Positions 1,983-14,940 of a stretch of DNA of 64,000 nt are shown here, in pieces. The notes beneath the pieces were generated by a model. That model was not told the origin of the DNA and did no database searches. It saw nothing but the letters and a program-made list of their open reading frames with translations. A program made the translations under genes and the position numbers. How positions within the stretch are numbered: the stretch's first letter is position 1; each line of letters opens with the position of its first letter. Source of the DNA: Bacteroidales bacterium (lineage in GTDB: Bacteria; Bacteroidota; Bacteroidia; Bacteroidales; P3); contig JAGAYN010000023.1 in the NCBI GenBank assembly GCA_017940465.1, positions 62,001-126,000 of the forward strand, read 5' to 3'.

Positions 1983-2040
1983 GAAGGAGAGATTGTAAAA
2001 ATGAATTGAACAAATTAATAGGATAGTAACATAATAAACA

Positions 2041-2934
2041 ATGAGACCAATTAAGACATTTTTGAGAGACCCGCGTGAAATAACGCAGGGATTGGTGAGG
2101 AAGTTCCTGTCGAGCCGTATCGAGGATGACAGGACATACCTCTCGTATTTGTATGCCGCGACCTTCTGGAAGAAGATGCATTGGGAGAATCCCCAGACCT
2201 TCAACGAGAAGATGACGTGGCTGAAAGTGTATGGGCGTGACCCTAAGTACGCGACTATGGTGGATAAGTACTCCGCCAAGTCGTTGGTTTTCACCCTAAT
2301 AGGGGGGGGGTATTTGGTTGATAATTACGCAGTTGCAGACAGTTGGGACGAGATTGACTGGGCATCGTTGCCTGACCGGTTTGTCATCAAGTGTACCCAC
2401 GATAGCGGAGGAGCCTTCGTTTGCAGAGACAAGAAGAGTTTTGACTTCGGGGGCACACGGAAAATCATAGAAAGAAATCTTAATACATACAATTATAACA
2501 TAGCTCGCGAGTGGCCGTACAAGGATGTGCCACATAGAATCATCGTTGACCGTCTGCTGGACGACCATACAGGTAATGAGTTGCGCGACTATAAGTTCTG
2601 GTGCTTCAATGGTAAGCCTACTTATATGTACTGCACTGTCAAGGCCAAGCAGATTTATGAGAACTTCTATGATATGGACTTCCAGCCCGTGATGATAGAC
2701 CACGGGTTCCCACGTCACCAGCCTGAATTTGAACGCCCCGAGTGCTTTGACGAAATGCGGCAGTTGGCCGAGAAGTTATCTGCCGGTATTCCTTTCGTAA
2801 GGGTGGACTTCTTCCAAGTGGAAGGGAAAGTCTATTTCGGAGAGTTTACCTTCTTCGATTGGGGTGCACACCGTCCGTTCAAGGGAGACTGGGATAGGAA
2901 ACTCGGAGAGCTAATCACGCTGCCTGTTAAGTAA
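2041..2934 (+). CDS. TupA-like ATP-grasp protein, polysaccharide locus
   Basis: 297 residues with the hallmarks of the TupA-like ATP-grasp family (often annotated as glycosyltransferases in capsule and teichuronopeptide loci): 'NPQTFNEKMTWLK' near residue 52, 'MVDKYSAK', 'LPDRFVIKCTHDSGG' near 115, 'LRDYKFWCFNG' near 182 and the C-terminal 'VRVDFFQVEGKVYFGEFTF'. These would form the ATP-binding and ligase fold; the acceptor is unknown. The gene opens the polysaccharide cluster. A G9 tract at 2302-2310 encodes three glycines in a stretch poorly conserved relative to the paralogue at 3009, though both have identical spacing there. Losing or gaining one G would frameshift and truncate the protein, so it may be phase variable. 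Confidence 0.82.
   Translation: MRPIKTFLRDPREITQGLVRKFLSSRIEDDRTYLSYLYAATFWKKMHWENPQTFNEKMTWLKVYGRDPKYATMVDKYSAKSLVFTLIGGGYLVDNYAVADSWDEIDWASLPDRFVIKCTHDSGGAFVCRDKKSFDFGGTRKIIERNLNTYNYNIAREWPYKDVPHRIIVDRLLDDHTGNELRDYKFWCFNGKPTYMYCTVKAKQIYENFYDMDFQPVMIDHGFPRHQPEFERPECFDEMRQLAEKLSAGIPFVRVDFFQVEGKVYFGEFTFFDWGAHRPFKGDWDRKLGELITLPVK
2302..2310 (+). repeat. G9 homopolymer inside TupA-like gene
   Basis: Nine consecutive G in the coding region, in frame at this length. With ten G a TGA follows within four codons; with eight G the reading continues out of frame for several dozen codons. Tracts of this length are typical slippage sites. Confidence 0.9.
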
Positions 2935-2936
2935 CG

Positions 2937-3003
2937 GTTTACTGTTTACGGTTGACCGTTCACGAGGCGGCAGCATCTGAACAAGAATCGTAAAACAGTA
3001 AAC
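2937..3003 (+). repeat. Imperfect inverted repeat between the two TupA-like genes
   Basis: GTTTACTGTTTAC at 2937-2949 is complementary, with one extra A, to GTAAAACAGTAAAC at 2990-3003. The loop is about 40 nt and the right arm ends 5 nt before the ATG at 3009, so the structure could cover the ribosome binding region. It could equally be a dispersed intergenic repeat unit; only one copy is seen here. Confidence 0.55.
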
Positions 3004-3008
3004 AAAAT

Positions 3009-3902
3009 ATGGCAGTAAAATCAGTGATTCAAGCCTCCAAGCATCCTTGGATGGCAGCGTTGTTGCGCATGTGTTCGGACAAGGCGTTCATTCGTCTTAA
3101 GTGGGCCGGCAGAAGGATGCCCTACAAACTTAACTTGAAGAACCCACGGACATTCAATGAGAAACTTCAGTGGATAAAACTCTATGACCACAACCCGCTC
3201 TACACGACGCTGGTTGACAAATATCGAGTGAAGCAGTATGTGACGGAACGAGTAGGGGCAGAGCATGTCATTCCCTTGCTTGGAGCTTGGGACAGGGTTG
3301 AGGATATTGAATGGGAGAAGTTGCCTAATCAGTTTGTCATTAAGTGCTCGCACGATTGTGGAGGGATGGTTATTTGCAAGGATAAATCACAACTGGACAT
3401 ACCCGCAGCTTCTGCAATGCTGAAGAAGAGGTTTGATTATAACTACTATTATGAAGGTCGTGAGTGGCCTTATAAGAATGTTCAACCCAAGGTGTTTGCA
3501 GAGGCTTACAAGGAAGATGAATTCGGTGAACTGCGTGACTATAAGTTCTTCTGTTTCGATGGCGAAGTGAAGGCGTTGTTCATCGCTTCTGACCGTCAGA
3601 ACAAGAATGAGGAGGTGAAATTCGACTTCTTTGATGCAGACTTTAATCACCTTCCTTTCACGCAAGGACATCCTAACGCGAAGAGTTCAAAGCCAAGAGG
3701 CTTTGAAAAGATGAAGCAGCTGGCAGCCAAACTGAGCAAGGGGCTACCTGAGGTGCGGGTGGACTTCTATGACGTGAACGGACATGTGTATTTCGGAGAA
3801 TTCACGCTGTTCCATTTCGGTGGAATGGTGCCGTTTAACCCCACGGAGTGGGACTATAAATTTGGTGAATGGATAAAACTACCAACAACAAAAAGAAAAT
3901 GA
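3009..3902 (+). CDS. Second TupA-like ATP-grasp protein
   Basis: 297 residues, the same length as the gene at 2041 and clearly a paralogue: 'NPRTFNEKLQWIKLYD', 'LVDKYRVKQYV', 'LPNQFVIKCSHDCGG', 'LRDYKFFCFDG' and 'VRVDFYDVNGHVYFGEFTLF' occur in the same order and spacing. This copy keeps the more typical sequence 'ERVGAEHVIPLLGAWD' where the first has the poly-glycine segment. Presumed role is adding a residue to the glycan built by this locus, in the cytoplasm. Its TGA (3900-3902) overlaps the ATG of the next glycosyltransferase (3899), indicating translational coupling. Confidence 0.85.
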   Translation: MAVKSVIQASKHPWMAALLRMCSDKAFIRLKWAGRRMPYKLNLKNPRTFNEKLQWIKLYDHNPLYTTLVDKYRVKQYVTERVGAEHVIPLLGAWDRVEDIEWEKLPNQFVIKCSHDCGGMVICKDKSQLDIPAASAMLKKRFDYNYYYEGREWPYKNVQPKVFAEAYKEDEFGELRDYKFFCFDGEVKALFIASDRQNKNEEVKFDFFDADFNHLPFTQGHPNAKSSKPRGFEKMKQLAAKLSKGLPEVRVDFYDVNGHVYFGEFTLFHFGGMVPFNPTEWDYKFGEWIKLPTTKRK

Positions 3903-4987
3903 AGAGAATACTTTGCCTGATAGACGGGCTTGGCTCAGGTGGCGCAGAACGCCAGATGACCGGCCTTGCCGTGATGCTCAAAGAAAAAGGCTACCACGTT
4001 GACTTGGTGGCCTATCACGAGGAAAAGAATTTTTATGTCTCCCTTGCCAAAGAGGGGGGGATAGAGCCTTTTTTTCTGGAAGTCGGCCCGTCACGATGGT
4101 CAAAGGTGAAAGCCGTAAGGCGTTATATTAAACAGCAGGGAGGTTATGACTGGGTAATCGCTTACAAACCCGGTCCTAATGCCATTGGTTGTATTCTGAA
4201 ACTATTGGGCATGAGGTTTAAGCTGATTGTAAGCGAACGAATTACAGATAGTGAAGTATGGAGAAAGAAGAATCTTTTCAGACTGTACAGGTTTACGGAT
4301 TACATTGTGCCGAATGCTTATTCCCAAGGGGAGTTCTTGTCGAAGACGTTCCCGTGGATGACAAAGAAGATAGTCCCAATAACCAACTTTACAGATACTG
4401 ACTATTTTAAACCGTCAGAATTCTCTGAATCTGATATTTTCAGGGTGCTTACAGTTGCCAGAGTGGCGAAACAGAAGAATGTCCTCAGATATTTGGATGC
4501 TATCGCCCTCTTGAAGAAACGAGGCATTGAGCGTGTGCATTTCGATTGGTATGGTAACGTGGAAAGGGGACAAGACGATTATGCGCAGGAGTGTTATGCA
4601 AAGGTGAAGGAACTGGGATTAGAGGAGCAGATAGAGTTCCATCCTTCGACTTCGGAAATCTTGATGAAGTATCAGGAGTGTGATATGTTTTGTCTGCCCA
4701 GTTTGTTTGAAGGGTTCCCGAATGTGCTCTGTGAAGCTATGAGCTGTGGGAAGCCGGTGGCCTGTGGCAATGTGTGTGATAATGCAAGGATAGCTGCAAA
4801 TGGTAAGAATGGTCTGCTGTTCGATCCGACGAAAGTGGAAGAGATAGCAGATGCCCTTCAAGAGATTTACAGTATGCCGTTAGAAAAGAGGCAGGAATGG
4901 GGAAGGAGCAGTCGTGAGATAGCTGTGGAACTGCTTTCCAAGGAAGCTTTTGTGAATAAGTATATTGAAGTGATAGAAAGGAACTGA
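3899..4987 (+). CDS. GT4-family glycosyltransferase
   Basis: Start taken at ATG 3899 (ATGA overlap with the upstream gene) rather than the in-frame ATG at 3869, because the protein then begins 'MKRILCLIDGLGSGGAERQ', the classical GT4 N-terminus with the glycine-rich GGAER acceptor loop. The C-terminal GT-B half contains 'MFCLPSLFEGFPNVLCEAMSCGKPV' in pieces, with the E-x7-E donor-site motif. 362 residues is a normal length. It would transfer a sugar from a nucleotide-activated donor to the lipid-linked glycan on the cytoplasmic face. A G7 tract lies at 4054-4060 ('AKEGGIEP') and is in frame. Confidence 0.88.
   Translation: MKRILCLIDGLGSGGAERQMTGLAVMLKEKGYHVDLVAYHEEKNFYVSLAKEGGIEPFFLEVGPSRWSKVKAVRRYIKQQGGYDWVIAYKPGPNAIGCILKLLGMRFKLIVSERITDSEVWRKKNLFRLYRFTDYIVPNAYSQGEFLSKTFPWMTKKIVPITNFTDTDYFKPSEFSESDIFRVLTVARVAKQKNVLRYLDAIALLKKRGIERVHFDWYGNVERGQDDYAQECYAKVKELGLEEQIEFHPSTSEILMKYQECDMFCLPSLFEGFPNVLCEAMSCGKPVACGNVCDNARIAANGKNGLLFDPTKVEEIADALQEIYSMPLEKRQEWGRSSREIAVELLSKEAFVNKYIEVIERN
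4054..4060 (+). repeat. G7 homopolymer inside GT4 gene
   Basis: Seven G within an apparently intact coding frame. It is shorter than the other tracts in this locus and so less likely to slip at high frequency. Confidence 0.8.
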
Positions 4988-4992
4988 TAATA

Positions 4993-6063
4993 ATGGCAAA
5001 GCTCATTGTTGCTATAGCAACCTTGGGGTCAGGAGGCGCAGAACGTGTGTTGTCTGTTCTCTCTTCTAATCTGGCAGACAGTTTTGGGTCGGTTCAATAT
5101 GTCTTATGGGATGGTGGAGAGCCTTTCTATCCCATAGATGACCGTGTGAAGATTGTATCTCTACCAGAAATATCAGGGAAGAAAGGACGCAACCACCAGT
5201 TGGCAACGTTCAGGCGGTTGATACAGAAGGAAAGGCCAGAATTGGTGTTGTCTTTCCTAACTCCTTACAGTATACTGGTGCTTCTTTCCACTATAGGGAT
5301 GAAGCAGAAAGTGGTTGTTGCTGAACGCACTGACCCGAAACGACTGTTGGCAGGAGGAAAGGCCGGGCTATGGCTTCGGGATTGGTTGTATAGACGTGCA
5401 GACGGAATTCTGACACAGACGGAATATGCCAAGTCGTGCTATGATGAGAAGTTTGCAGGGAAAACAAAGGTTATTTATAACCCTGTGACAATGAGCGACG
5501 AGCAAGTGGGCATGGCATTGAGGACACCCAAGGAACATGTCTTTGTGACTGCTGGACGCTTGGAACCCGTCAAAGACCAGACGATGATGATTGAGGCTTT
5601 TGAGGCGTTCTATCAGTCTCACCCTGAATACAGGCTGGTGATTTATGGCGAAGGCCCTGCACGGGAATCTTTGCAGAAGATGATAGACGAGAAGAAACTA
5701 CAGAATGTAGTGACATTAGCGGGACGCACTAATGATTTGTGGAATAAGATGGCCAGTGCAGAGGCGTTTCTTCTTACTTCGGAATATGAAGGTATGAGCA
5801 ATGCCTTGATTGAAGCCATGTGCCTGGGGTTGCCGGTTATCTCAACCAAGGTGGCAGGCGCAACGGATTTGATAAAGGACGGAGAGAACGGCTACTTGAT
5901 TGACGTGCATGACAAAGATAGTTTAGCGGATCGAATGGCTTGTTTGGCTGATAGTTCGGATATGCGTTTGCAAATGGGACAAAGTGCATCTGAGGTATAT
6001 GAATTAGTACGTCAGGACAAGATTAACATACAGTGGGTAGAATATCTGAAATCGAAAATATGA
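4993..6063 (+). CDS. GT4-family glycosyltransferase
   Basis: 356 residues. The N-terminus 'IVAIATLGSGGAERVLS' is the GT4 acceptor-side loop. The C-terminal domain has 'VTAGRLEPVKDQTMMIEAF' near residue 186 and 'FLLTSEYEGMSNALIEAMCLGLPVI' (in part) with the EGMSNALIEAM nucleotide-sugar motif near residue 265, followed by 'GENGYLI'. The family is retaining, GT-B fold; the sugar cannot be predicted. It starts 5 nt after the preceding stop, so it is in the same operon. A short broken ORF and then a third GT4 gene follow. Confidence 0.88.
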   Translation: MAKLIVAIATLGSGGAERVLSVLSSNLADSFGSVQYVLWDGGEPFYPIDDRVKIVSLPEISGKKGRNHQLATFRRLIQKERPELVLSFLTPYSILVLLSTIGMKQKVVVAERTDPKRLLAGGKAGLWLRDWLYRRADGILTQTEYAKSCYDEKFAGKTKVIYNPVTMSDEQVGMALRTPKEHVFVTAGRLEPVKDQTMMIEAFEAFYQSHPEYRLVIYGEGPARESLQKMIDEKKLQNVVTLAGRTNDLWNKMASAEAFLLTSEYEGMSNALIEAMCLGLPVISTKVAGATDLIKDGENGYLIDVHDKDSLADRMACLADSSDMRLQMGQSASEVYELVRQDKINIQWVEYLKSKI

Positions 6064-6091
6064 TAAGACACTACACAGAAAAGAATAGTAA

Positions 6092-6301
6092 ATGATACGA
6101 ACAATAATGGAAGAAACCGAAAAGACCGTTGGCATATCATCCAGAGAGGAGACTAACTCTGCCATAGGTTCCTGGTCGGGGTATATCTACCAAGGACTGT
6201 GTGGCGCATTGGTGGTGCTGAGGATGTTGAAGGAGGATACCTCTGCGTATAAGGACTATTCTCTGCAGTTGGATGCCTATGAGGTTTTTTTGTTTAGCTA
6301 A
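6092..6301 (+). pseudogene. Fragment of an unrelated protein, possibly the N-terminus of an ABC-3C/DUF4297-type defence protein
   Basis: A 69-codon ORF that does not resemble a polysaccharide gene. Residues from about 23 to 63 ('AIGSWSGYIYQG', then 'VVLRML', then 'YSLQLDAYE') resemble, from memory, the beginning of proteins with a restriction-like nuclease or ABC-three-component N-terminal domain, where a 'YQG' segment is followed by an 'ExxEDF'-type strand. The ORF runs into a T7 tract (6284-6290) and stops within a few codons; the neighbouring frames also stop quickly, so the rest of the gene is absent. I read it as a remnant left by insertion or deletion in the locus. The family assignment is weak and from memory only. 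Confidence 0.35.
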
Positions 6302-6337
6302 GTATATGAACATGACTGACTTAAGAAAGTGACGAAT

Positions 6338-7462
6338 ATGCAAGGTATTTTGATATTAACGAACAGTATAGGGGGACTACATAGTTTTCGAAAAGAGGTG
6401 GTGAAGGCCATCGTGGATGCGGGACATGAGGTGGTGATCTCCGCACCAGAGATGGTGGAGAAGGCGGAGTATTTCCGCGAGATAGGCTGTAAGATTGAAC
6501 TGATGCCATTCAACCGCAGGGGGATGAACCCTCTGGCGGACTTCAAGCTGATGATGGCCTATAAAAAAATGATGCGGCGACTGAACCCGAAGGCGGTGCT
6601 GACCTATACTATCAAGCCAAACATCTATGGAGGCATGGCGGCAAGACTGTGCGGCGTGCCGCAACTGGCCAATGTGACGGGATTGGGCGATGCCGTGGAA
6701 AACGGCGGATGGCTGAAGCGGCTGACGGTGACGCTCTATAGGATGGGCTTAGGCAGGGCGTACAGGATATTCTTTCAGAACGAGAGCAACCGCAACTTCT
6801 GTATCAAGATGGGGATTGCAGACGAAACCTCAGTGCAGCTGCCAGGTTCGGGCGTAAACCTGCAGCACCACACTTGTCAGGAGTATCCAGCTGACGAGGG
6901 CAGGGTGCGATTCCTCTATATAGGACGTATGCTGAAGGACAAGGGGATAGAGGAGTATTTTGCTACAGCGGAAAAGGTGGTGTCAAGATTCAACAAGACA
7001 CAGGATGGTGGATTGCCGCAGGTGGAGTTTCAGATTTTGGGGAATGTGGAAGGACCGTTTCAGGTGCGATTGGACGACTTAACGGCGCGGGGCGTGGTGA
7101 AGCACCTTGGGGTGACGAGCGACGTGCGGCCATTTATCGGGGCTGTGGAGTGCACCGTGATGCCGTCGTATCACGAAGGGATGTCGAATGTAAATCTGGA
7201 GAGTGCCGCAAACGGACGACCTGTGATTACGGCAAATGTGCCAGGATGCCGAGAGACGGTGGACGACGGGCTGACGGGTCTGCTCTGCGAGGCACGTAGC
7301 GCAGAGAGCCTGACAGCCATTGTGGAGCGTTTCATCGCCCTGCCTTGGGAACAGAAAGTGCTGATGGGGAAGATGGGGCGAGAGAAAGTGGAGCGAGAGT
7401 TTGACAGGCAGATTGTGATTGATGCTTATTTGAATGAAATAAATAAGATTGCTCATGTATAA
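6338..7462 (+). CDS. GT4-family glycosyltransferase (PglA-like group)
   Basis: Start taken at ATG 6338 ('[18 protein letters not shown]'); a GTG three codons upstream is also possible. 374 residues. The N-terminal half has '[13 protein letters not shown]', and '[12 protein letters not shown]' near residue 93, a signature common in Campylobacter PglA-like and Bacteroidota capsule GT4 enzymes. The C-terminal half has '[15 protein letters not shown]' and '[24 protein letters not shown]' in parts, supplying the donor site. It lies directly before the phosphoglycosyl transferase, with a 3' overlap, which fits a role in adding the second sugar to the undecaprenyl-linked primer. Specificity is unknown. 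Confidence 0.85.
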
Positions 7463-8063
7463 ACATTTTTTCAAGAGGGTCTTTGACTTTCTTATTTCGT
7501 TGGTGGCACTGATTGTTATCAGTCCGATATTGCTGGTGGTGACTATCTGGTTGCATCTTGCCAATAAAGGGGCGGGAGCGTTTTTCTTTCAGGAGCGACC
7601 AGGACTGCATGGCAAAATCTTTAAGATTATAAAGTACAAGACGATGACGGACGAGCGGGATGCGGAGGGAAATCTACAGCCTGACGAAGTGCGTCTTACC
7701 AAGGTGGGAAAATTGGTTCGCTCGACTTCGATTGATGAGTTGCCGCAGTTAATCAATGTGCTGAAGGGAGATATGGCGCTAATTGGGCCGCGTCCGTTGA
7801 GAGTGGACTACTTGCCACTGTACTCACTAGAGCAGGCACGTCGCCATGATGTGCGACCAGGTATTTCGGGTTGGGCACAGTGCAACGGTAGAAACTCCAT
7901 CAGTTGGGGGAAGAAATTTGAATTGGACGTGTGGTATGTTGACCATCTGTCATTGACGCTTGACCTGAAGATTATCTTCCTGACCATCAAGAAAGTGCTT
8001 GTCAGAGAAGGAATTTCAGAGGAGGGACATGCCACTATGGAGGCGTTTAATGGACATAACTGA
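7455..8063 (+). CDS. Initiating phosphoglycosyl transferase (PglC/WcaJ-type bacterial sugar transferase)
   Basis: 202 residues from ATG 7455, overlapping the end of the preceding gene by 8 nt. One N-terminal hydrophobic segment ('[20 protein letters not shown]', about residues 9-28) anchors the monotopic fold. Then come '[22 protein letters not shown]', '[19 protein letters not shown]' and '[17 protein letters not shown]', the conserved motifs of the family including the catalytic D-E pair (IDELPQ) and the PRP phosphate-binding loop. It moves a sugar-1-phosphate from a UDP-sugar to undecaprenyl phosphate. The short, single-domain form matches PglC. With the nearby PglD-like acyltransferases and DegT aminotransferase it suggests a modified amino sugar as the first residue (inference). 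Confidence 0.93.
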
Positions 8064-8078
8064 TAAATACGTATATAT

Positions 8079-8828
8079 ATGAGAAGTATAATCATAGGTG
8101 CAGGAACGTATGGGGAAGTCTATCTGGCCTACCTGCAAGAGGCGGGTGTGGAGGTTGTAGGCTTTCTCGATGACAATTCTGAATTAGAAGACAAAACGGT
8201 GAAGAACGTTCCTGTATTAGGAAGGACATCCGAACTGGAGAGTCTAAAAGGAGAATATGCTGTAGAAACCGTCTATTGTCCTATAGGGAATAATAAACTA
8301 CGTGTAAGATTTCTGGAGATGGCTCGCAGTTTGGGTTATAAAACTCCTAACTATATCCATTCGTCTGTTTTGATTGCGCCTCACGTGCAAATAGCAGAAG
8401 AGGGTGTATATATTCTGCAGACCACGCAGATTATGCCTTACGCGCAGATAGAGAAAGATGTGATGATCAGCATGGGGGCCAATATTATCTACCACTCGCA
8501 TCTAAGCCAGGGTACTTTTGTGAGCAACGGTGTATGCTTTGGAGCGAATGTAACCTCGCGGAAATATGCATACGTGGGAATGGGGGCAACGGTGATGACC
8601 GGTGTGAAAACACTGGGTGAAGATTGTCTGGTTGGTGCAGGTGCTGTGGTCATTAAAGATGTTCCTGACGGGGCTGTGATGGCTGGTGTCCCTGCCAAAA
8701 TGCTGAGGAGAAAAGAGGGATATCAGGAAGTTGCTGCCACCCAAAATGGGGGGGGGGGGATCGGTTTGGAGTTTTTAAGTCCTGAGCGAAGAGTTTGGCT
8801 GCGCCCGGAAAGGAGGGCTGCAGCATGA
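8079..8828 (+). CDS. NeuD/PglD-like sugar O/N-acyltransferase with slippage-prone C-terminal tail
   Basis: 249 residues. The N-terminal Rossmann-like part ('MRSIIIGAGTYGEVYLAYLQEAGVEVVGFLDD' in pieces) binds substrate as in PglD. From about residue 90 a left-handed beta-helix of hexapeptide repeats runs to 'GAGAVVIKDVPDGAVMAGVPAKML', where the family normally ends. The extra roughly 40 residues are encoded across a G12 tract (8748-8759) and end in a TGA that overlaps the ATG of the next gene. With other tract lengths the frame stops at 8776 or 8783. The catalytic fold should be unaffected; what changes is the tail and the coupling to the downstream gene. Likely role: acetylation of the amino sugar precursor in the cytoplasm. 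Confidence 0.85.
   Translation: MRSIIIGAGTYGEVYLAYLQEAGVEVVGFLDDNSELEDKTVKNVPVLGRTSELESLKGEYAVETVYCPIGNNKLRVRFLEMARSLGYKTPNYIHSSVLIAPHVQIAEEGVYILQTTQIMPYAQIEKDVMISMGANIIYHSHLSQGTFVSNGVCFGANVTSRKYAYVGMGATVMTGVKTLGEDCLVGAGAVVIKDVPDGAVMAGVPAKMLRRKEGYQEVAATQNGGGGIGLEFLSPERRVWLRPERRAAA
8748..8759 (+). repeat. G12 homopolymer at 3' end of acyltransferase gene
   Basis: Twelve consecutive G, the longest tract in the window, preceded by CCAAAAT. At a length divisible by three the upstream frame terminates on the downstream start codon (ATGA at 8825-8828). At other lengths it terminates at 8776-8778 or 8783-8785, about 40-50 nt before that start. Confidence 0.92.
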
Positions 8829-9445
8829 AGAAACTATATTTGTACGGAGCCAGTGGCCATGGCAAAGTAGTCAAGGATATACTCGATGCTCAGGGAAGAC
8901 CATTAGAGGGTTTCATTGATGATAATCCGCAGGTGGATAGCATCTGCGATATGAAAGTAGAACACCAGGCGCACAACGCTGATGAAATAATCATCTCTGT
9001 AGGTAATAATGAAATCAGAAGACGGATAGCAGAGCGGACAACGTGCGACATTGAGACTGCCGCCATTCACCCCAATACCTGCATTGCTGCAACCGCCTCG
9101 ATAGGTGACGGGACAGTGGTGATGGCTGGGGCTGTGGTGAATGCTGATGCCAAAATTGGGAAACATTGCATTATCAACACTGGAGCGACCGTTGACCATG
9201 AATGCCAGATAGGCGACTATGTGCATATTGCACCAGGAGTGCATCTGTGTGGGCAGGTACAGGTAGGGGAAGGGACGCTCGTAGGAGTGGGCTCCTCGGT
9301 AATTCCCTGCGTAAATATTGGCCGTTGGTGTGTAATAGGTGCAGGGAGTGTAGTTTTGAATGATGTTCCCGATGGAAGTGTTGCCTACGGAAACCCGTGC
9401 CGGGTGGTAAAGCAAAGGGCTTCCGCCTTGAATGGGGGGGGGTAA
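8825..9445 (+). CDS. Second NeuD/PglD-like acyltransferase
   Basis: 206 residues from ATG 8825 ('MKKLYLYGASGHGKVVKDIL'), preceded by a strong purine-rich ribosome site (GGAAAGGAGGG). The N-terminal GASGHGKVV loop and 'GFIDDN' are PglD signatures. The beta-helix includes 'IHPNTCIAATASIGDGTVVMAGAVVNADAKIG' in pieces, a family-typical catalytic histidine candidate in 'NTGATVDHECQIG', and ends 'GNPCRVVK'. The final codons cross a G9 tract and stop at once. If the tract were G8 or G11 the frame would run 25 further codons to a TGA overlapping the ATG of the ATP-grasp gene at 9518. Substrate is probably an amino sugar nucleotide made for this glycan. Confidence 0.88.
   Translation: MKKLYLYGASGHGKVVKDILDAQGRPLEGFIDDNPQVDSICDMKVEHQAHNADEIIISVGNNEIRRRIAERTTCDIETAAIHPNTCIAATASIGDGTVVMAGAVVNADAKIGKHCIINTGATVDHECQIGDYVHIAPGVHLCGQVQVGEGTLVGVGSSVIPCVNIGRWCVIGAGSVVLNDVPDGSVAYGNPCRVVKQRASALNGGG
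9434..9442 (+). repeat. G9 homopolymer at 3' end of second acyltransferase gene
   Basis: Nine G directly before the TAA. Preceded by GAAT and followed about 55 nt later by GGCTGCGC and a GGAAGGAGGG ribosome site, the same order of elements as around the G12 tract. Present length gives an immediate stop; G8 or G11 would give an ATGA overlap with the gene at 9518. Confidence 0.9.
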
Positions 9446-9517
9446 ATATTTAGTTGAGAATTTAAAGTGTAGAGTTTATAGTTGGGGCTGCGCTCTTGAA
9501 GGAAGGAGGGTGGCCGC

Positions 9518-10474
9518 ATGAAGACGAGCATACTGATAACCTCTGCAGGGCAACGTGTGGCGTTGGTGAAAGCCTTCCAGGAATCTTTGAAGCGTTTCTT
9601 CCCCGAAAGTAAGGTCTATACAACGGATATGAATCCGCGAATGGCTCCGGCAGCCTACGTGAGTGACGGATGTTTTGAAGTGCCTCGCTGTACGTCGGAT
9701 GACTATATTGAGACGTTGCTGACTCTATGCTTAGGCAATGGTATTGGGATGATAGTTCCGACAATAGACACTGAACTGGCTGTCTTGTCTGCCAATAAGG
9801 GAAATTTTGCAAAACACGGTGTTTGTGTATCGGTTTCCGACTATGAATTTGTGATGATGTGCCGTGACAAGCGAAACACGGGGGCTTTCTTTGAGCAACA
9901 TGGCATCAGAGTGCCTAAGGAAGTGGATAAATATCATCCTACATTCCCGCTGTTTGCCAAGCCATACGATGGCTCTTTGAGTACCAATCTCCACTATATC
10001 AAGAACGCGGAGGAGCTGACGGAAGAGATATTGAACGACCCGAAACTGCTCTTTATGGAGTATATAGACAAGGCAGTGTATAAAGAGTACACGGTGGATA
10101 TGTACTACGGCATGGATAATCGAGTGAAGTGCATTGTGCCTCGTGAGCGTATCAAGATTAGGGCTGGCGAGATTAACAAAGGACTGACGGAGAAAGAGCC
10201 GTTGACGCAGTATCTGCGGGACAGGTTGGAGACGATAGAAGGATGTGTGGGGTGTATCTGCATACAGTTGTTCTTGAATCCACAGACAGGAGATGTAGTG
10301 GGGATTGAGATAAACCCTCGCTTTGGCGGTGGCTATCCACAGACCTACGCGGCAGGTGGGAACTATGCGGAATACCTGATAAGGGAGTATTTCCTGAGTG
10401 AGAAGATAGAATACATTGATGGGTGGAAAGACCATCTGCTGATGTTGAGATATGATGATGCCGTGTATGTGTAA
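9518..10474 (+). CDS. ATP-grasp domain protein of a polysaccharide locus
   Basis: 318 residues. N-terminal pre-ATP-grasp fold ('ILITSAGQRVALVKAFQ', with 'VYTTDMNPRMAPAAYVSD') and ATP-grasp core with 'PLFAKPYDGS' near residue 150, 'LFMEYIDKAVYKEYTVDMYY' and the metal-binding 'GIEINPRFGGGYPQTYAAG' near residue 267. This is the carbamoyl-phosphate-synthase-large-chain-like family frequently found in Bacteroidota capsule loci beside a HAD hydrolase, as here. It should form an amide or acyl-phosphate-dependent bond on a glycan precursor; the acceptor is unknown. A GGAAGGAGGG site lies just upstream, and the ATG may be translationally coupled to the preceding gene depending on the G tract. Confidence 0.86.
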   Translation: MKTSILITSAGQRVALVKAFQESLKRFFPESKVYTTDMNPRMAPAAYVSDGCFEVPRCTSDDYIETLLTLCLGNGIGMIVPTIDTELAVLSANKGNFAKHGVCVSVSDYEFVMMCRDKRNTGAFFEQHGIRVPKEVDKYHPTFPLFAKPYDGSLSTNLHYIKNAEELTEEILNDPKLLFMEYIDKAVYKEYTVDMYYGMDNRVKCIVPRERIKIRAGEINKGLTEKEPLTQYLRDRLETIEGCVGCICIQLFLNPQTGDVVGIEINPRFGGGYPQTYAAGGNYAEYLIREYFLSEKIEYIDGWKDHLLMLRYDDAVYV

Positions 10475-11123
10475 GAAGGTGGTAGTATTTGACCTTGACG
10501 ATACGCTGTACAAGGAGATTGACTTCTTGAAGTCTGCCTATAGGCACATTGCTTCATTGGTCAGCAATGCGAATGCACCAGAGGAGGCGGTGTATGAACT
10601 GATGCTGAATACCTACCAAACGGGAGGCAACGCGTTTGAAGAGACTGTCAGGCAGTTTGGATTTAGGCTGTACAGCGTGCAATGGATGCTCTGTGTCTAT
10701 CGACATCATAAGCCCAAAATCACCTTGGATGAAAATACCTGGCAGACATTGGAGCAGTTGAAAGCCAATGGCGTGACGATGGGCATCATTTCTGACGGAA
10801 GGCTGCAACAGCAATGGAACAAGATAGAGGCACTGGAACTGATGAAGTTTGTCGATAAGAAGAATATTGTTATCAACGACATAGAAGACAGGTTCAAACC
10901 AGACAGACGTAGTTTCCGCTTCTTTATGGATAAGTTTGGGAAAGAGGCAGACTACTGGTACATAGGTGACAATACCGCAAAGGATTTCGTGGCTCCAAAC
11001 AGCCTTGGCTGGACAACGGTGTGTCTGTTGGATGACGGGAGGAATATACACCGGCAAACAATGCCCACGGGGGCAAACATGGATGTGAGGCATATTAATG
11101 AAATACCGAAAATCATAGGATGA
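10467..11123 (+). CDS. HAD-superfamily hydrolase
   Basis: Several in-frame ATGs (10452, 10455, 10458, 10467) overlap the end of the ATP-grasp gene; the last gives 'MCKKVVVFDLDDTLYKE', the natural start of motif I (DxDxT). Motif II is in 'TMGIISDGRLQQQW', motif III lysine near 'EDRFKPDRRSF', and motif IV in 'YWYIGDNTAKDFVAP'. 218 residues with a helical cap between motifs I and II, as in the phosphoglycolate-phosphatase-like group. The tight 3' overlap with the ATP-grasp gene suggests that the pair acts on the same intermediate, for example removing a phosphate from a product of the ligase; this is inference. Confidence 0.87.
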   Translation: MCKKVVVFDLDDTLYKEIDFLKSAYRHIASLVSNANAPEEAVYELMLNTYQTGGNAFEETVRQFGFRLYSVQWMLCVYRHHKPKITLDENTWQTLEQLKANGVTMGIISDGRLQQQWNKIEALELMKFVDKKNIVINDIEDRFKPDRRSFRFFMDKFGKEADYWYIGDNTAKDFVAPNSLGWTTVCLLDDGRNIHRQTMPTGANMDVRHINEIPKIIG

Positions 11124-11125
11124 CA

Positions 11126-12194
11126 ATGAGAAATACGCTTTTATTTTTTGGAAAGACAAACTCTCGCCGGACGCGAGGTGATGATGGAGTGAGGCTGAAG
11201 AACCGTGTTTTTTCGACTCGGTAAAATCTTATCTCGCTCGGGCAAGCGTCGTTGACCTCGACTTGGTTCGTCAGCCAGCCACATTGCTGAAGTTGCTGGC
11301 GGCTCTGTGGTCGTGGCGGTATCGTACTATTGTTGTGGCCAGTGGAGGAAGTGTACCTTCCTGCCAGTTCGTTTCATTAATACAAAGAATTACCCCCCCA
11401 TTTGGTTCGGGTATGCTAAACTCTATATACTCGGATTAGGTGGCAATATGCATCTCTATCTGCGCGATAATCCTAAAGGGGTGGCAGTGATGAAAAGGAG
11501 TAAGGCCGTTCTGGCGGAAAGAAAGCAGATGAAGAAAGATCTGGAGAAGATGGGTATCACTCCTGTGTACTACATGCCCAACTTCAAGAACATTGTGGCC
11601 TTGCCTGAAAAGAAGAGAAAAGCGAGTGAAGGCAGAATGCGATTCCTATTCTTCTCGCGTATCAACCCGGCAAAAGGTTGTGACTTGATTTTTGAGGCCA
11701 TCGAGATGCTTCGGGACTGGGGGCTTGGAGAAAGGTTTGAGGTGGGCTTTTACGGTATGATGCTGGAGGATTATCGGGAGGAGTTTGAAGGAAAGATAAG
11801 ACGCTACGAGGACAATGCGAGTTATCATGGTGTCCTGGATGGTACAGACACTCGCTCTCACGAAAAGTTAGCAGCGTATGATGTGTTTCTGTTCCCGACA
11901 TTTTGGAGTGACGAGGGCTTTCCTGCCGCCATCGTGGATGCCTTCATAGCAGGGCTGCCGGTCATCGCATCGGATTGGAATTGCAACAGCGAACTGATAC
12001 GTGACGGTGAGAACGGATTCCTCATACCTCCGAAGAATGTCAAGGCTCTTGCTGAACGAATGAGGTGGTTTATTGAGCATCCCGAGTTCATCGAAGAGAA
12101 GGTGGAAGCCATACAACAAGAGGCTTTGCAGTTTGATGTGAAGCATTGCCTCGGGAGGGAAGTGATGGAAGAAATGGGGATGATTAAGAAATAA
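11126..12194 (+). pseudogene. GT4 glycosyltransferase gene interrupted by two homopolymer frameshifts
   Basis: An N-terminal piece begins at ATG 11126 ('MRNTLLFFGKTNS', then 'GDDGVRLKNRVF') and stops at 11222. If the T6 run at 11208-11213 had seven T, the frame would continue as 'FDSVKSYLARASVVDLDLV' and 'SWRYRTIVVASGGSVPSCQF'. At the C7 run (11393-11399) it leaves frame again; eight C would join it to 'IWFGYAKLYILGLGGNMHLYL' and the intact C-terminal GT4 half, which has 'FLFFSRINPAKGCDLI', 'FLFPTFWSDEGFPAAIVDAF' and 'GENGFLI' and ends at 12194. Only two one-base insertions restore a full-length protein of about 357 residues. Real inactivation, phase variation or homopolymer miscalling are all possible. 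An ORF from 11307 alone would lack the acceptor domain. Confidence 0.8.
11393..11399 (+). repeat. C7 homopolymer at a frameshift in GT4 gene
   Basis: Seven C between the two halves of the glycosyltransferase; eight would restore the frame. On the opposite strand the context AAATGGGGGGG resembles the context of the two acyltransferase G tracts. Confidence 0.8.
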
Positions 12195-12532
12195 AAAACG
12201 CGAAATTGGCTGGTGTCTTGAATTAATAGAATTTCAATAAGACGGACACGGAAGTACACGAATTTTTTTAGAATCGGTAAGCGCTGGGCTGTGGGAGAGA
12301 GAAGTCCAGTTATCATCGTATGATGCTGTTGACTGGGGAAAGATACTCCAATTGGCTGAAGAGCATTCGGTAGTAGGACTGCTGGTAGCGGGACTGGAGC
12401 AAGTTTATTTGCTCCTTGGCATAGATTCTCAACAAAGCATTTTGTTGGAATGAGTAACTAATCTTATTTGATGACTTTCTGGGGTCGCATCGTAACGGAT
12501 CTGACCCTCTGCTGGTTTTATCTTTTCCACTT
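12195..12532. other. Decayed stretch between the GT4 gene and the NTP_transf_5 gene
   Basis: 338 nt without an intact gene. Its middle part (12241-12453) is a recognisable gene remnant described separately. The first 45 nt and the last 80 nt are AT-rich and show nothing I can assign. Confidence 0.6.
12241..12453 (+). pseudogene. Remnant of an NTP_transf_5 nucleotidyltransferase N-terminus
   Basis: An open frame without a start codon reads 'FLESVSAGLWEREVQLSSYD', then 'VDWGKILQLAEEHSVVGLL' and 'AGLEQV', ending at TGA 12451-12453. This matches the beginning of NTP_transf_5 proteins; the intact neighbour at 12533 has the same layout ('LLRTALWAREEVWHSL', 'ILKEAEKQTVAALVLDAMD'). The glutamine-rich segment and all catalytic parts of the domain are missing, so this is a broken earlier copy or the scar of a recombination. 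Confidence 0.6.
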
Positions 12533-13618
12533 ATGCTTAACAATTTATTATTTAGCTTACTACGAACTGCCTTGTGGGCCCGGGAGGAAGTATGGCATTC
12601 TCTTCAGACAAAGGATGCTGGGCAAATTCTCAAAGAAGCGGAGAAGCAGACGGTGGCGGCACTGGTCTTAGACGCGATGGACAGGTGTGGGGCGAAGCTG
12701 CCTACGGAGGTAGTGCTCAGCTACTTCAGTTATTCGGTAGCGGTGGCACAAGGGAACCGGCGATTGAATGCGGCGGTGAGGGCATTGGGAAGGTCGTTTG
12801 AGGAGAATAGTGTCAGCTATGCTGTCGTGAAAGGACAGGTGGTGGCGAGCCTCTATCCAAATCCATTACTGCGCCAGTCGGGCGATATTGACTTCTACTG
12901 CGACAACGAGAACATCGACAGGGCAAAAGAGATTTTAAGCAGGGAATGGGGCGTTGTGTTTGATGATACAGACTCGGACAAACATTTGCATTTTGACAAA
13001 AAGGGAGTGACGTTTGAGATGCATTTCTCGCTCACTTCTTTTTATAGTAAGAGGAAGAACGGTTATTGGGAACAGCTATTGCGTGAGGACAAGGGCACCG
13101 AGGTGAGTCTTGACGGGCAGCCTGTCAAAACACTCTCACCGACGCTGCACACACTGTATGTATTCCTGCACCTGTACCACCATCTAATGGAGTTGGGCGT
13201 GGGACTCAGGCAGTTCTGCGATTTAGCCGTCATGCTGCATGCTTACAACACGGAGATTGACCATGACGCTTTGAGACTACATTTGGAGAGGCTTGGCATG
13301 GAAAGAGCTTTCCGTACCTGTGGCAGTATCTTGGTACAGCGGCTTGGATTGCCAGCAGAAGAGTTCCCTTATGCACTAACGGATAAAGAACGGCGCTATG
13401 GCGACAAAATTCTTGATGTGGTGTTCTATCGTGGTAATATGGGGCACTACAACAAGTGCAGCGGCTTCCACGGTTGGAGGCACAATATAGAATCAACTGG
13501 CATCAAAATTTCGCACTTCATGAAGTTTATGCCATTGGCACCTGGCTATTGCTGCAGATGGATAGCACATGAGCTAAAAAGAAAAATATCGACAAAATTG
13601 AAATGGAATGGCAAATAA
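12533..13618 (+). CDS. NTP_transf_5-family nucleotidyltransferase-like protein
   Basis: 361 residues. Features of the family: N-terminal helices ('ALWAREEVW'), 'YAVVKGQVVASLYPNPLLRQSGDIDFYC' in pieces (residues about 97-124) with the G-D-I-D metal-binding pair of the polymerase-beta-like fold, and 'VTFEMHFSLTSFY' carrying a further acidic residue. The C-terminal helical part 'LYVFLHLYHHLMELGVGLRQFCDLAVML' is also characteristic. Such proteins are frequent at the ends of Bacteroidota capsule loci, but their substrate is not established. The 3' end overlaps the aminotransferase gene by 11 nt. Confidence 0.85.
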   Translation: MLNNLLFSLLRTALWAREEVWHSLQTKDAGQILKEAEKQTVAALVLDAMDRCGAKLPTEVVLSYFSYSVAVAQGNRRLNAAVRALGRSFEENSVSYAVVKGQVVASLYPNPLLRQSGDIDFYCDNENIDRAKEILSREWGVVFDDTDSDKHLHFDKKGVTFEMHFSLTSFYSKRKNGYWEQLLREDKGTEVSLDGQPVKTLSPTLHTLYVFLHLYHHLMELGVGLRQFCDLAVMLHAYNTEIDHDALRLHLERLGMERAFRTCGSILVQRLGLPAEEFPYALTDKERRYGDKILDVVFYRGNMGHYNKCSGFHGWRHNIESTGIKISHFMKFMPLAPGYCCRWIAHELKRKISTKLKWNGK

Positions 13619-14864
13619 GAGAATTTACCTGTGCCTGGCACACATGAGCGAGGCTGGATTGGAACAGAAGTATATCAAGGAGGCTTTCGATACAAATTGG
13701 GTGGTGCCCCTTGGACCAAATGTAAATGGGTTTGAGAAAGATCTGGAAACTTTCTGCGGAGAGAACAAACGTGTTGTTGCACTATCTGCAGGAACGGCGG
13801 CGGCGCATCTGGCACTGATCGCCTGCGGAGTGAAGCCTGGGGACGAGGTTATCGTACAGAGTTTCACCTTCTGTGCTTCTTCACACCCGATTACCTATCT
13901 GGGTGCTACGCCTGTGTTTATCGATTCGGAGAAGGATACTTGGAATATGGATCCCGCCCTTCTTGAAGAGGCCATCAAAGACCGTATGGCTAAGACGGGC
14001 AAGAAGCCGAAGGCTATTGTGCCTGTGGCTCTGTATGGCATGCCGTACAAGATAGATCGCATTATGGAGATTGCCGACCGCTATGAGATACCTGTAATAG
14101 AGGATGCTGCCGAGGGCTTCGGCTCTCGCTACAAGGGTCAAGTGCTGGGCACGTTTGGCAAATATGGCGTGCTGTCGTTCAACGGCAACAAGATGATTAC
14201 GACCTCTGGAGGCGGTGCGCTGATTACGGGGAGCGAGGAAGAATGGCGCGAGATTATGATGTACGCCACGCAGTACCGTGAGAGTTACCCCTACTACCAG
14301 CATGAAAAGATTGGCTACAACTATCGCATGTCGAATATCTGCGCGGGTATCGGCCGTGGGCAGATGACGGTTGTGAACGATCACGTGGCCCACCATAAGC
14401 ATGTGCAGAGGATGTACGAGGAGTTGCTGGCCGATGTGGCAGGTGTACATGTGCATTCCCAGCCCGACAATGGTGACTACGACTCGAACTATTGGCTTTG
14501 CACCATCACTCTCGACGGGGATGTGCGGGTGAGAGGTCAGGAGAATGCCTACAAGACCATCGTAAAGGGTGCTGTTGGAGGTGCGGCTGGCGTGATTCAT
14601 GCTGCCTCGTCGGCCACTACGGATTGCCAGCCCAATGATAATGTCGAGGCGCTGCGTGTGGCGCTTGACGAGGCGCAGATTGAAGCGCGCCCGGTGTGGA
14701 AGCCGATGCACAAGCAGCCTGTGTATAAGGATGCTCCGGCATACGTGAATGGGGTATCAGAGGCCATCTTCAAGGAGGGGATGTGTCTTCCTGCGGGCCC
14801 GTGCGTCAGCGACGATGATGTGAGGTATATTGTCGAAAGCATCAAGGCGAATATCATTGGTTGA
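13608..14864 (+). CDS. DegT/DnrJ/EryC1-family PLP aminotransferase
   Basis: 418 residues, fold type I. Motifs: substrate loop 'LGPNVNGFEKDLETF', 'ALSAGTAAAHLALIACGVKPGDEV' in pieces, 'VIEDAAEGFGSRYKG' near residue 163 with the PLP-binding Asp, and 'SFNGNKMITTSGGG' near residue 193 with the Schiff-base lysine. The C-terminal part contains 'QIEARPVWKPMHKQPVY' (family R-P-x-W-K-P-x-H). This places it with PglE/WecE-like nucleotide-sugar aminotransferases that make 4-amino sugars; PglC- and PglD-like partners are in the same locus, but no 4,6-dehydratase is seen in the window. It is the last gene of the locus and is followed by a terminator. Confidence 0.93.
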   Translation: MANKRIYLCLAHMSEAGLEQKYIKEAFDTNWVVPLGPNVNGFEKDLETFCGENKRVVALSAGTAAAHLALIACGVKPGDEVIVQSFTFCASSHPITYLGATPVFIDSEKDTWNMDPALLEEAIKDRMAKTGKKPKAIVPVALYGMPYKIDRIMEIADRYEIPVIEDAAEGFGSRYKGQVLGTFGKYGVLSFNGNKMITTSGGGALITGSEEEWREIMMYATQYRESYPYYQHEKIGYNYRMSNICAGIGRGQMTVVNDHVAHHKHVQRMYEELLADVAGVHVHSQPDNGDYDSNYWLCTITLDGDVRVRGQENAYKTIVKGAVGGAAGVIHAASSATTDCQPNDNVEALRVALDEAQIEARPVWKPMHKQPVYKDAPAYVNGVSEAIFKEGMCLPAGPCVSDDDVRYIVESIKANIIG

Positions 14865-14940
14865 GGACTTGCTTTGATGCGTTTCATTTCTCCTCGGCAA
14901 GGTGGTTCTGCGCCGCGATACGAGGGGATACGCTTTATTT

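Follow-up and report, generated by a model that had tools for sequence, protein, structure and literature searches.

Described systems of C-terminal phase variation

In the described case of Helicobacter canadensis, 3' poly-G tracts cause phase variation of protein C termini (Snyder et al. 2010; PMC2823697), and in Neisseria gonorrhoeae C-terminal phase variation comes with a fusion phase (PMC5320596, which also cites a poly-A-mediated fusion at pglB2 of Neisseria meningitidis; Viburiene et al. 2013). Here, we discuss two poly-G tracts at the ends of two adjacent sugar acetyltransferase genes (genes 1 and 2) in a polysaccharide locus of a Bacteroidales bacterium (GenBank assembly GCA_017940465.1, contig JAGAYN010000023.1, positions 62,001 to 126,000; this whole stretch of 64,000 nucleotides (nt) is called the window). 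Judging from sequence comparison, we consider it fairly probable (roughly 0.6) that the two tracts are phase-variable, of the C-terminal type, and part of an operon for a surface polysaccharide, and that the phase would set both the tail of the protein and the coupling to the next gene.

The tracts of H. canadensis resemble ours in being poly-G, in their position at the 3' end (a glycan cluster contains or adjoins several of them), and in giving three alternative tails; one of them (HCAN_0660/0661) is able to merge two genes, as a run of eight G (G8) does in a relative of our source organism (genome G141, see below) (PMC2823697). They differ in that they belong to another phylum and in that tract-length variation was seen there, whereas the lengths reported here come from assemblies alone. 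Neither 'coupl' nor 'overlap' appears in the main text of PMC2823697; Ala-Ala protein ends and strong Shine-Dalgarno (SD) sites are features found here. With the Neisseria systems our locus shares a repeat near the 3' end that leads to alternative tails or to fusion with the next gene (PMC5320596), and in the case of Neisseria PglB the biochemical step is also the same, namely acyl transfer plus phosphosugar transfer (PMC6959607). Regarding pglB2, the repeat is poly-A and the outcome a fusion, whereas here the repeat is poly-G, a stop overlaps the next start at eight junctions, and fusion is found only in G141.

Campylobacter tracts lie in surface-glycan genes and perform the classic on/off switching of the gene itself. 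The poly-G phase-variable genes of that genus (PMC6321876) share repeat-driven switching with the system proposed here, and a mid-gene G9 tract at 2302 of the window would be of their on/off kind. A survey that sorts frame transitions distinguishes phase variation, translational coupling, and other classes (PMC3711429). Among the matches listed in searches of the open-licence literature, there was none for a version with coupling or a degron, nor any in which repeats drive phase variation in Bacteroidetes or Alistipes. Given the Helicobacter and gonococcal cases, an earlier note on this DNA was too strong in holding that no described system does this. New here are that the arrangement recurs in a Bacteroidales family, that one phase overlaps the next start, and that SD and Ala-Ala features go with it.

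Two G tracts beyond the acetyltransferase domain

The two modules consist of the following features:

8079..8828, + strand: gene 1, NeuD/PglD-family sugar acetyltransferase (TIGR03570, E 2.3e-47, 161.2 bits), deposited in the read-through phase
8748-8759, + strand: G12 tract of module 1, preceded by AAT
8760-8824, + strand: linker 1 (65 nt), with GGCTGCGC at 8797-8804
8807-8817, + strand: strong SD site GGAAAGGAGGG, a 9-nt match to the assumed anti-SD complement
8825-8828, + strand: ATGA overlap of the gene 2 start and the gene 1 stop in the deposited phase
8825..9445, + strand: gene 2, NeuD/PglD-family sugar acetyltransferase (TIGR03570, E 3.3e-64, 216.2 bits), deposited with a stop directly after the tract
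9434-9442, + strand: G9 tract of module 2, preceded by AAT
9443-9517, + strand: linker 2 (75 nt), with GGCTGCGC at 9486-9493
9501-9510, + strand: SD site GGAAGGAGGG in linker 2
9518-9521, + strand: ATGA of the gene 3 start and the gene 2 stop in the read-through phase
9518..10474, + strand: gene 3, carbamoyl-phosphate-synthase-like ATP-grasp protein (PF21360, E 1.3e-23; NF009405, E 5.7e-111, 370.5 bits, under the cut-off of 390)

The tracts, the (A)AAT before them, the linkers of 65-75 nt, the ribosome sites, and the ATGA junctions had all been pointed out in the earlier note, and all are present at these positions. Both acetyltransferases exceed the curated cut-off of TIGR03570 (NeuD/PglB/VioB acetyltransferase; 160.8 bits), and the domain match ends before the tract in each (residues 4-207 of 249 in gene 1 and 3-193 of 206 in gene 2), placing both tracts near the 3' end and beyond the conserved domain. 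The three frames consequently give three different tails at each tract while the enzyme core is kept. Since the tracts lie outside the domain, a change in length would affect how the protein ends and whether its frame overlaps the next gene, rather than the acyltransferase itself, just as that note had argued.

Reading each tract in three phases also bears out the frames and stop distances that had been proposed. At tract 1, the deposited phase stops 69 nt past the tract, on the ATGA, and yields a tail ending ...RPERRAAA, while the two other phases stop after 19 and 26 nt. At tract 2, the deposited phase meets an immediate stop (3 nt past the tract), another stops at 11 nt, and the third runs to 79 nt, again onto the ATGA, with the tail ...EGRRVAA; both extended tails thus have the predicted R-R-x-A-A end. 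One phase of each tract, in other words, brings the upstream stop about 10 nt or less from the downstream start, and this read-through phase is the deposited one at the first junction only, the second being deposited short. From base composition, a G12 run is expected 0.19 times in 461 kb of the source genome.

The modules had further been called duplicated, which did not hold up. The two linkers show no resemblance to each other beyond that of shuffled sequences (above 50 of 1000 shuffles score as high), ruling out a local duplication of one module; each resembles the module of another genome instead, with none of 1000 shuffles scoring as high either for module 1 against that of G158 (locus L141) or for module 2 against that of G039 (locus L155). 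A dispersed repeat was rejected too, as linker searches of the source genome gave weak matches only, apart from the queries themselves. The arrangement G8-N20-80-GGCTGCGC occurs in the source genome in these two modules only, and elsewhere in the family in one of 189 other genomes, where the match looks unrelated (the reversed control pattern gave none).

Gene-end tracts in related genomes

The relatives of gene 1 in named genomes that are nearest by identity include metagenome-assembled genomes (MAGs) of Bacteroidales, Tidjanibacter, and Alistipes, which would suggest that the family is Rikenellaceae-like. One of 17, a Tidjanibacter MAG (locus L057), has a gene 2 homologue, a G8 tract, and a gene 1 homologue, in the reverse of the gene order of the window and with both homologues above the TIGR03570 cut-off; three of the nearest other relatives (L056, L059, and L060) lack any run of eight G over the 8.6 kb covered. 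An order-wide search with gene 2 found matches in 29 of 393 genomes (the source genome included) and, among the other 28, one further tract case, namely G141, in which a G8 joins two TIGR03570-type acetyltransferase domains into a single frame of 441 amino acids. As a side observation, two NeuD domains also share one open frame of 428 amino acids in another family (G196:C24:83215-84444); its stretches (L178 and L251) contain no G or C run of at least 8, making this a fixed fusion comparable with the G8 fusion of G141.

A family-wide search with TIGR03570 gave 38 matches in 26 of 189 genomes, and the tract carriers among them are G100, G158, G168, G141, and gene 2 of the window. Among the 28 family gene ends examined from these 38 matches, six have a sense-strand run of at least eight G no more than 60 nt past the domain (two being those of the window, with gene 1 counted in), versus none of the 89 ends examined outside the family, a subset of more matches in which one piece ends at a contig end (Fisher P 1e-4). 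Beyond 60 nt there is one exception outside the family, a G10 in G566 at 153-162 nt past the domain. The combination of a tract, an SD site, and an ATG was found in 4/188 family genomes (the source genome, G039, G158, and G117) and the control pattern in none, although the G117 match is merely G-rich. The comparison of linkers across related genomes that had been suggested thus shows the gene-end design recurring in other species with different linkers. Tract lengths differ as well among species and loci (G8, G9, and G12), which is a different matter from variation within a population or between strains. The linkers of L057 (3959-3973) and L155 (4379-4393), from two species, have CAATAA[C/G]TTACAATA in common at an equal distance from the tract (0/1000 shuffles).

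Junctions with the next gene

Nine gene-end tracts precede a nearby downstream gene: the two of the window and those of L057, L140 (genome G100), L141 (G158), L143 (G168), L145 (G159), L155 (G039), and L146 (G056). Their carriers are NeuD genes in six cases, a hexapeptide acetyltransferase gene in L155, a LicD gene in L145, and a TupA-like gene in L146. A phase that reaches the next gene, defined as a stop at -6 to +14 nt from its start, exists at eight of the nine junctions, compared with the 3.4 predicted by shuffled linkers (P 4e-4), and at all eight the stop of one phase overlaps the next start. There is one reaching phase per junction in seven of them and two in L057, and the reaching tracts of the six relatives are G8-G9. 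At three of these junctions (window 1, L057, and L141), it is a reaching phase that was deposited.

The same junctions are rich in SD sites. A match of at least 7 nt stands before the downstream start at 5/8 junctions, compared with 9/223 control pairs of adjacent genes (P 2e-5), as scored with an assumed anti-SD complement rather than one taken from the source genome, whose 16S ribosomal RNA was not found in the assembly. Bacteroidia ribosomes are reported not to recognize SD sequences; an extended SD at rpsU, in other orders of the class, is an exception, while Bacteroidales are cited there as having strong SDs at rpsR (PMC9976891). The rpsU site and ours are alike in being strong SDs in a class said not to recognize them, but the former serves bS21 autoregulation, with no Bacteroidales meeting the criteria of that paper, whereas the sites described here stand at polysaccharide gene junctions. 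One idea is that a strong SD could act on ribosomes that the upstream frame has already brought in. These junctions also offer a natural setting in which to study the role of strong SDs where ribosomes reportedly ignore them. A few genes of the source genome that have no tract (L047 3490 and 4641; L052 13789) also show SD matches of 10-12 nt at 4-nt overlaps, so that this organism may use SD sites at overlapping junctions more widely.

Ala-Ala tails

The most frequent shared property of the read-through tails is their end. The Ala-Ala pattern was taken from the tails of the window and then tested on the six relatives alone, in which the read-through tail ends in Ala-Ala at 4/6 loci (RRVAA, RRAA, GHAA, and RYAA) versus 0/223 control upstream genes (P 1.3e-7). 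With the window included, this becomes 6/8 versus 0/223 control pairs, while none of the 15 non-reaching tails of the eight loci ends in this way. Of 928 open reading frames (ORFs), three end in Ala-Ala, two being gene 1 of the window and the one in L141. The end is arrived at by different nucleotides: before ATGA in both window junctions and L141, before TGATG in L155, and, in L140 and L143, within the opening codons of the next gene with TAA as the stop.

The tag of the transfer-messenger RNA (tmRNA) of the source genome is GENNYALAA. As this tag ends in ALAA, proteins with an Ala-Ala end may be targeted for proteolysis, although Leu-Ala-Ala is absent from all six Ala-Ala tails (which have A, V, H, V, Y, or R third from the end). 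MucA of Pseudomonas is a possible precedent, a slip there creating an ssrA-like end.

These tails could be the whole of the matter, in that the switched trait would be the C-terminal tail (through acetyltransferase stability or partner binding) and the overlap with the next gene incidental. The Ala-Ala end being the commonest shared feature, reached through different nucleotide solutions and present also at L143, which is without a strong SD, speaks for such an explanation, as does the ALAA end of the tmRNA tag. We nonetheless judge it quite improbable, since the strong SD at 5/8 junctions and the stop/start overlap in a phase of all eight suggest that the downstream start is involved too.

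Strand bias and mid-gene tracts

Runs of at least eight G were also counted by strand, with each assigned by a longest-ORF rule. In 20 polysaccharide regions of the family (359 kb), 17 are sense, none antisense, and five intergenic, whereas the background of the source genome (398 kb) has three sense, four antisense, and four intergenic. The same loci carry mid-gene tracts in acyltransferase-3, glycosyltransferase, AMP-binding, and TupA-like genes; 4/11 of these stand at a frame break as deposited, which is as expected for phase-variable genes or assembly errors. One of them lies in the window and is a possible candidate for a classic on/off tract in the same locus:

2302-2310, + strand: sense G9 tract, mid-gene in a TupA-like ATP-grasp gene (2041-2934), open as deposited

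One stretch of L145 (G159:C149), 2668-10887, holds six sense G8-G9 tracts in successive genes that span about 8 kb and of which several are, by Pfam, glycan genes. Two of these tracts lie at frame breaks as deposited, and the stretch may be a dense group of contingency genes. Capsule switching in gut Bacteroidales is usually attributed to invertible promoters, and this family appears to use repeat tracts in its sugar-coat loci, at gene ends and within genes.

Two further explanations meet this distribution. Firstly, G tracts might accumulate in the dispensable tails of laterally moving glycan genes, with nothing regulated and the frames merely reflecting ancestral overlapping gene pairs. The position of the tracts beyond the conserved domain, the guanine-cytosine (GC) content of the locus (0.48 versus 0.62 in the following DNA), and the frequency with which an open phase arises by chance at a single locus would agree with this. 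Neutral tracts, however, should not avoid the antisense strand (17 versus 0), and should not favor strong-SD junctions or Ala-Ala tails; tracts in mid-gene are present in these loci as well. We deem this origin unlikely. Secondly, RNA polymerase or the ribosome might slip on a G tract of fixed length, each cell then mixing short and read-through tails. RNA-level slippage would predict G tracts on the sense strand only, and every junction allows a short and a long form, but both the lengths (G8, G9, and G12) and the deposited phases differ among loci, which fits heritable states, and such slippage is less usual on poly-G than on poly-A. We regard it as highly improbable.

A proposed variant of C-terminal phase variation

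The best reading of the locus is a variant of C-terminal phase variation that would switch the coupling and possibly an Ala-Ala degron. Slippage in replication would move the end of the acetyltransferase gene among three phases, two of which would give a short tail ending 39-72 nt before the next start. In the third, translation would cross the strong SD and stop on the next start codon, where the arriving ribosomes could re-initiate, and the enzyme would also receive a longer tail that ends in Ala-Ala. The presumed parts of this mechanism are the length variation in cells, the effect on downstream translation, and the effect of the tail. If both coupling and the stability of the protein do depend on the phase, changing a single base would shift the balance between neighboring enzymes rather than turn one of them off.

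A stricter form, which we find rather doubtful, makes tract length a heritable reciprocal switch at the polysaccharide gene junctions of this family. In one phase, an Ala-Ala degron would remove the upstream acetyltransferase, and its ribosomes would supply the downstream gene by way of a strong SD to which free ribosomes do not respond; in either of the remaining phases, the enzyme upstream would be stable and the next gene starved. If so, one slip would trade a sugar-modifying activity for that of its neighbor.

Several points weigh against phase variation with coupling. L146 (1870) has no phase that reaches the next start, and an open phase to the next start is common at each locus taken singly (0.11-0.64 of shuffles for the eight loci), with only the set being significant. 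Both Ala-Ala and a strong SD are absent from L145 and from L057, the latter with two reaching phases, and at L143 the strong SD is missing. For L141, the start was taken to be the ATG at +57, which has an SD, while a mechanical scan gave +24. At L268 5977 (G9), the downstream ORF overlaps the deposited stop by 4 nt but there is neither an SD nor Ala-Ala (the tail ends in WAE); this tract was classed as mid-gene because another phase is open for 466 nt. Two rows were dropped from the gene-end set, namely G141/L142 (the fusion) and L034 12483 (its frame being antisense to a retained ORF), and the phases of the latter would also fall short of the next start. Sequence shared between junctions (L141 and window 1; L155 and window 2) means that the P values treat the cases as more independent than they are. 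A further 376 kb beside family loci, scanned to retest the Ala-Ala pattern, gave no new junction. Finally, tract lengths are known from assemblies alone, with one genome per species, and homopolymer lengths in metagenome assemblies are error-prone.

The polysaccharide locus and other G tracts

The source assembly comprises 2.24 Mb in 56 contigs. The polysaccharide locus spans 2000-14900 of the window at a GC of 0.48, rising to 0.62 downstream of it, and encodes two TupA-like ATP-grasp proteins, glycosyltransferases, a sugar transferase, the two NeuD/PglD-family acetyltransferases, and, in addition, an ATP-grasp protein, a HAD hydrolase, another glycosyltransferase, and a DegT aminotransferase. 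The sugar transferase precedes both modules:

7449..8063, + strand: bacterial sugar transferase (phosphoglycosyltransferase; Pfam PF02397, E 8.6e-61)

The same locus was sought in other species of the genus, but gene 1 was matched (E 1e-20) in 1/119 genomes, its own, and a search of viral contigs gave no match.

Long intergenic G tracts elsewhere in the source genome were considered as relatives of the modules and set aside as a different element, since they mostly precede another motif. In L023, L024, L026, L027, L029, and L031, intergenic-looking runs of G10-G14 are followed by a recurring TGAAAATCAGCATGTTA-like motif. Some of them lie about 50 nt from a GCAAAGATAC box, which we take to be promoter-like on the other strand, and the whole looks like a dispersed element.

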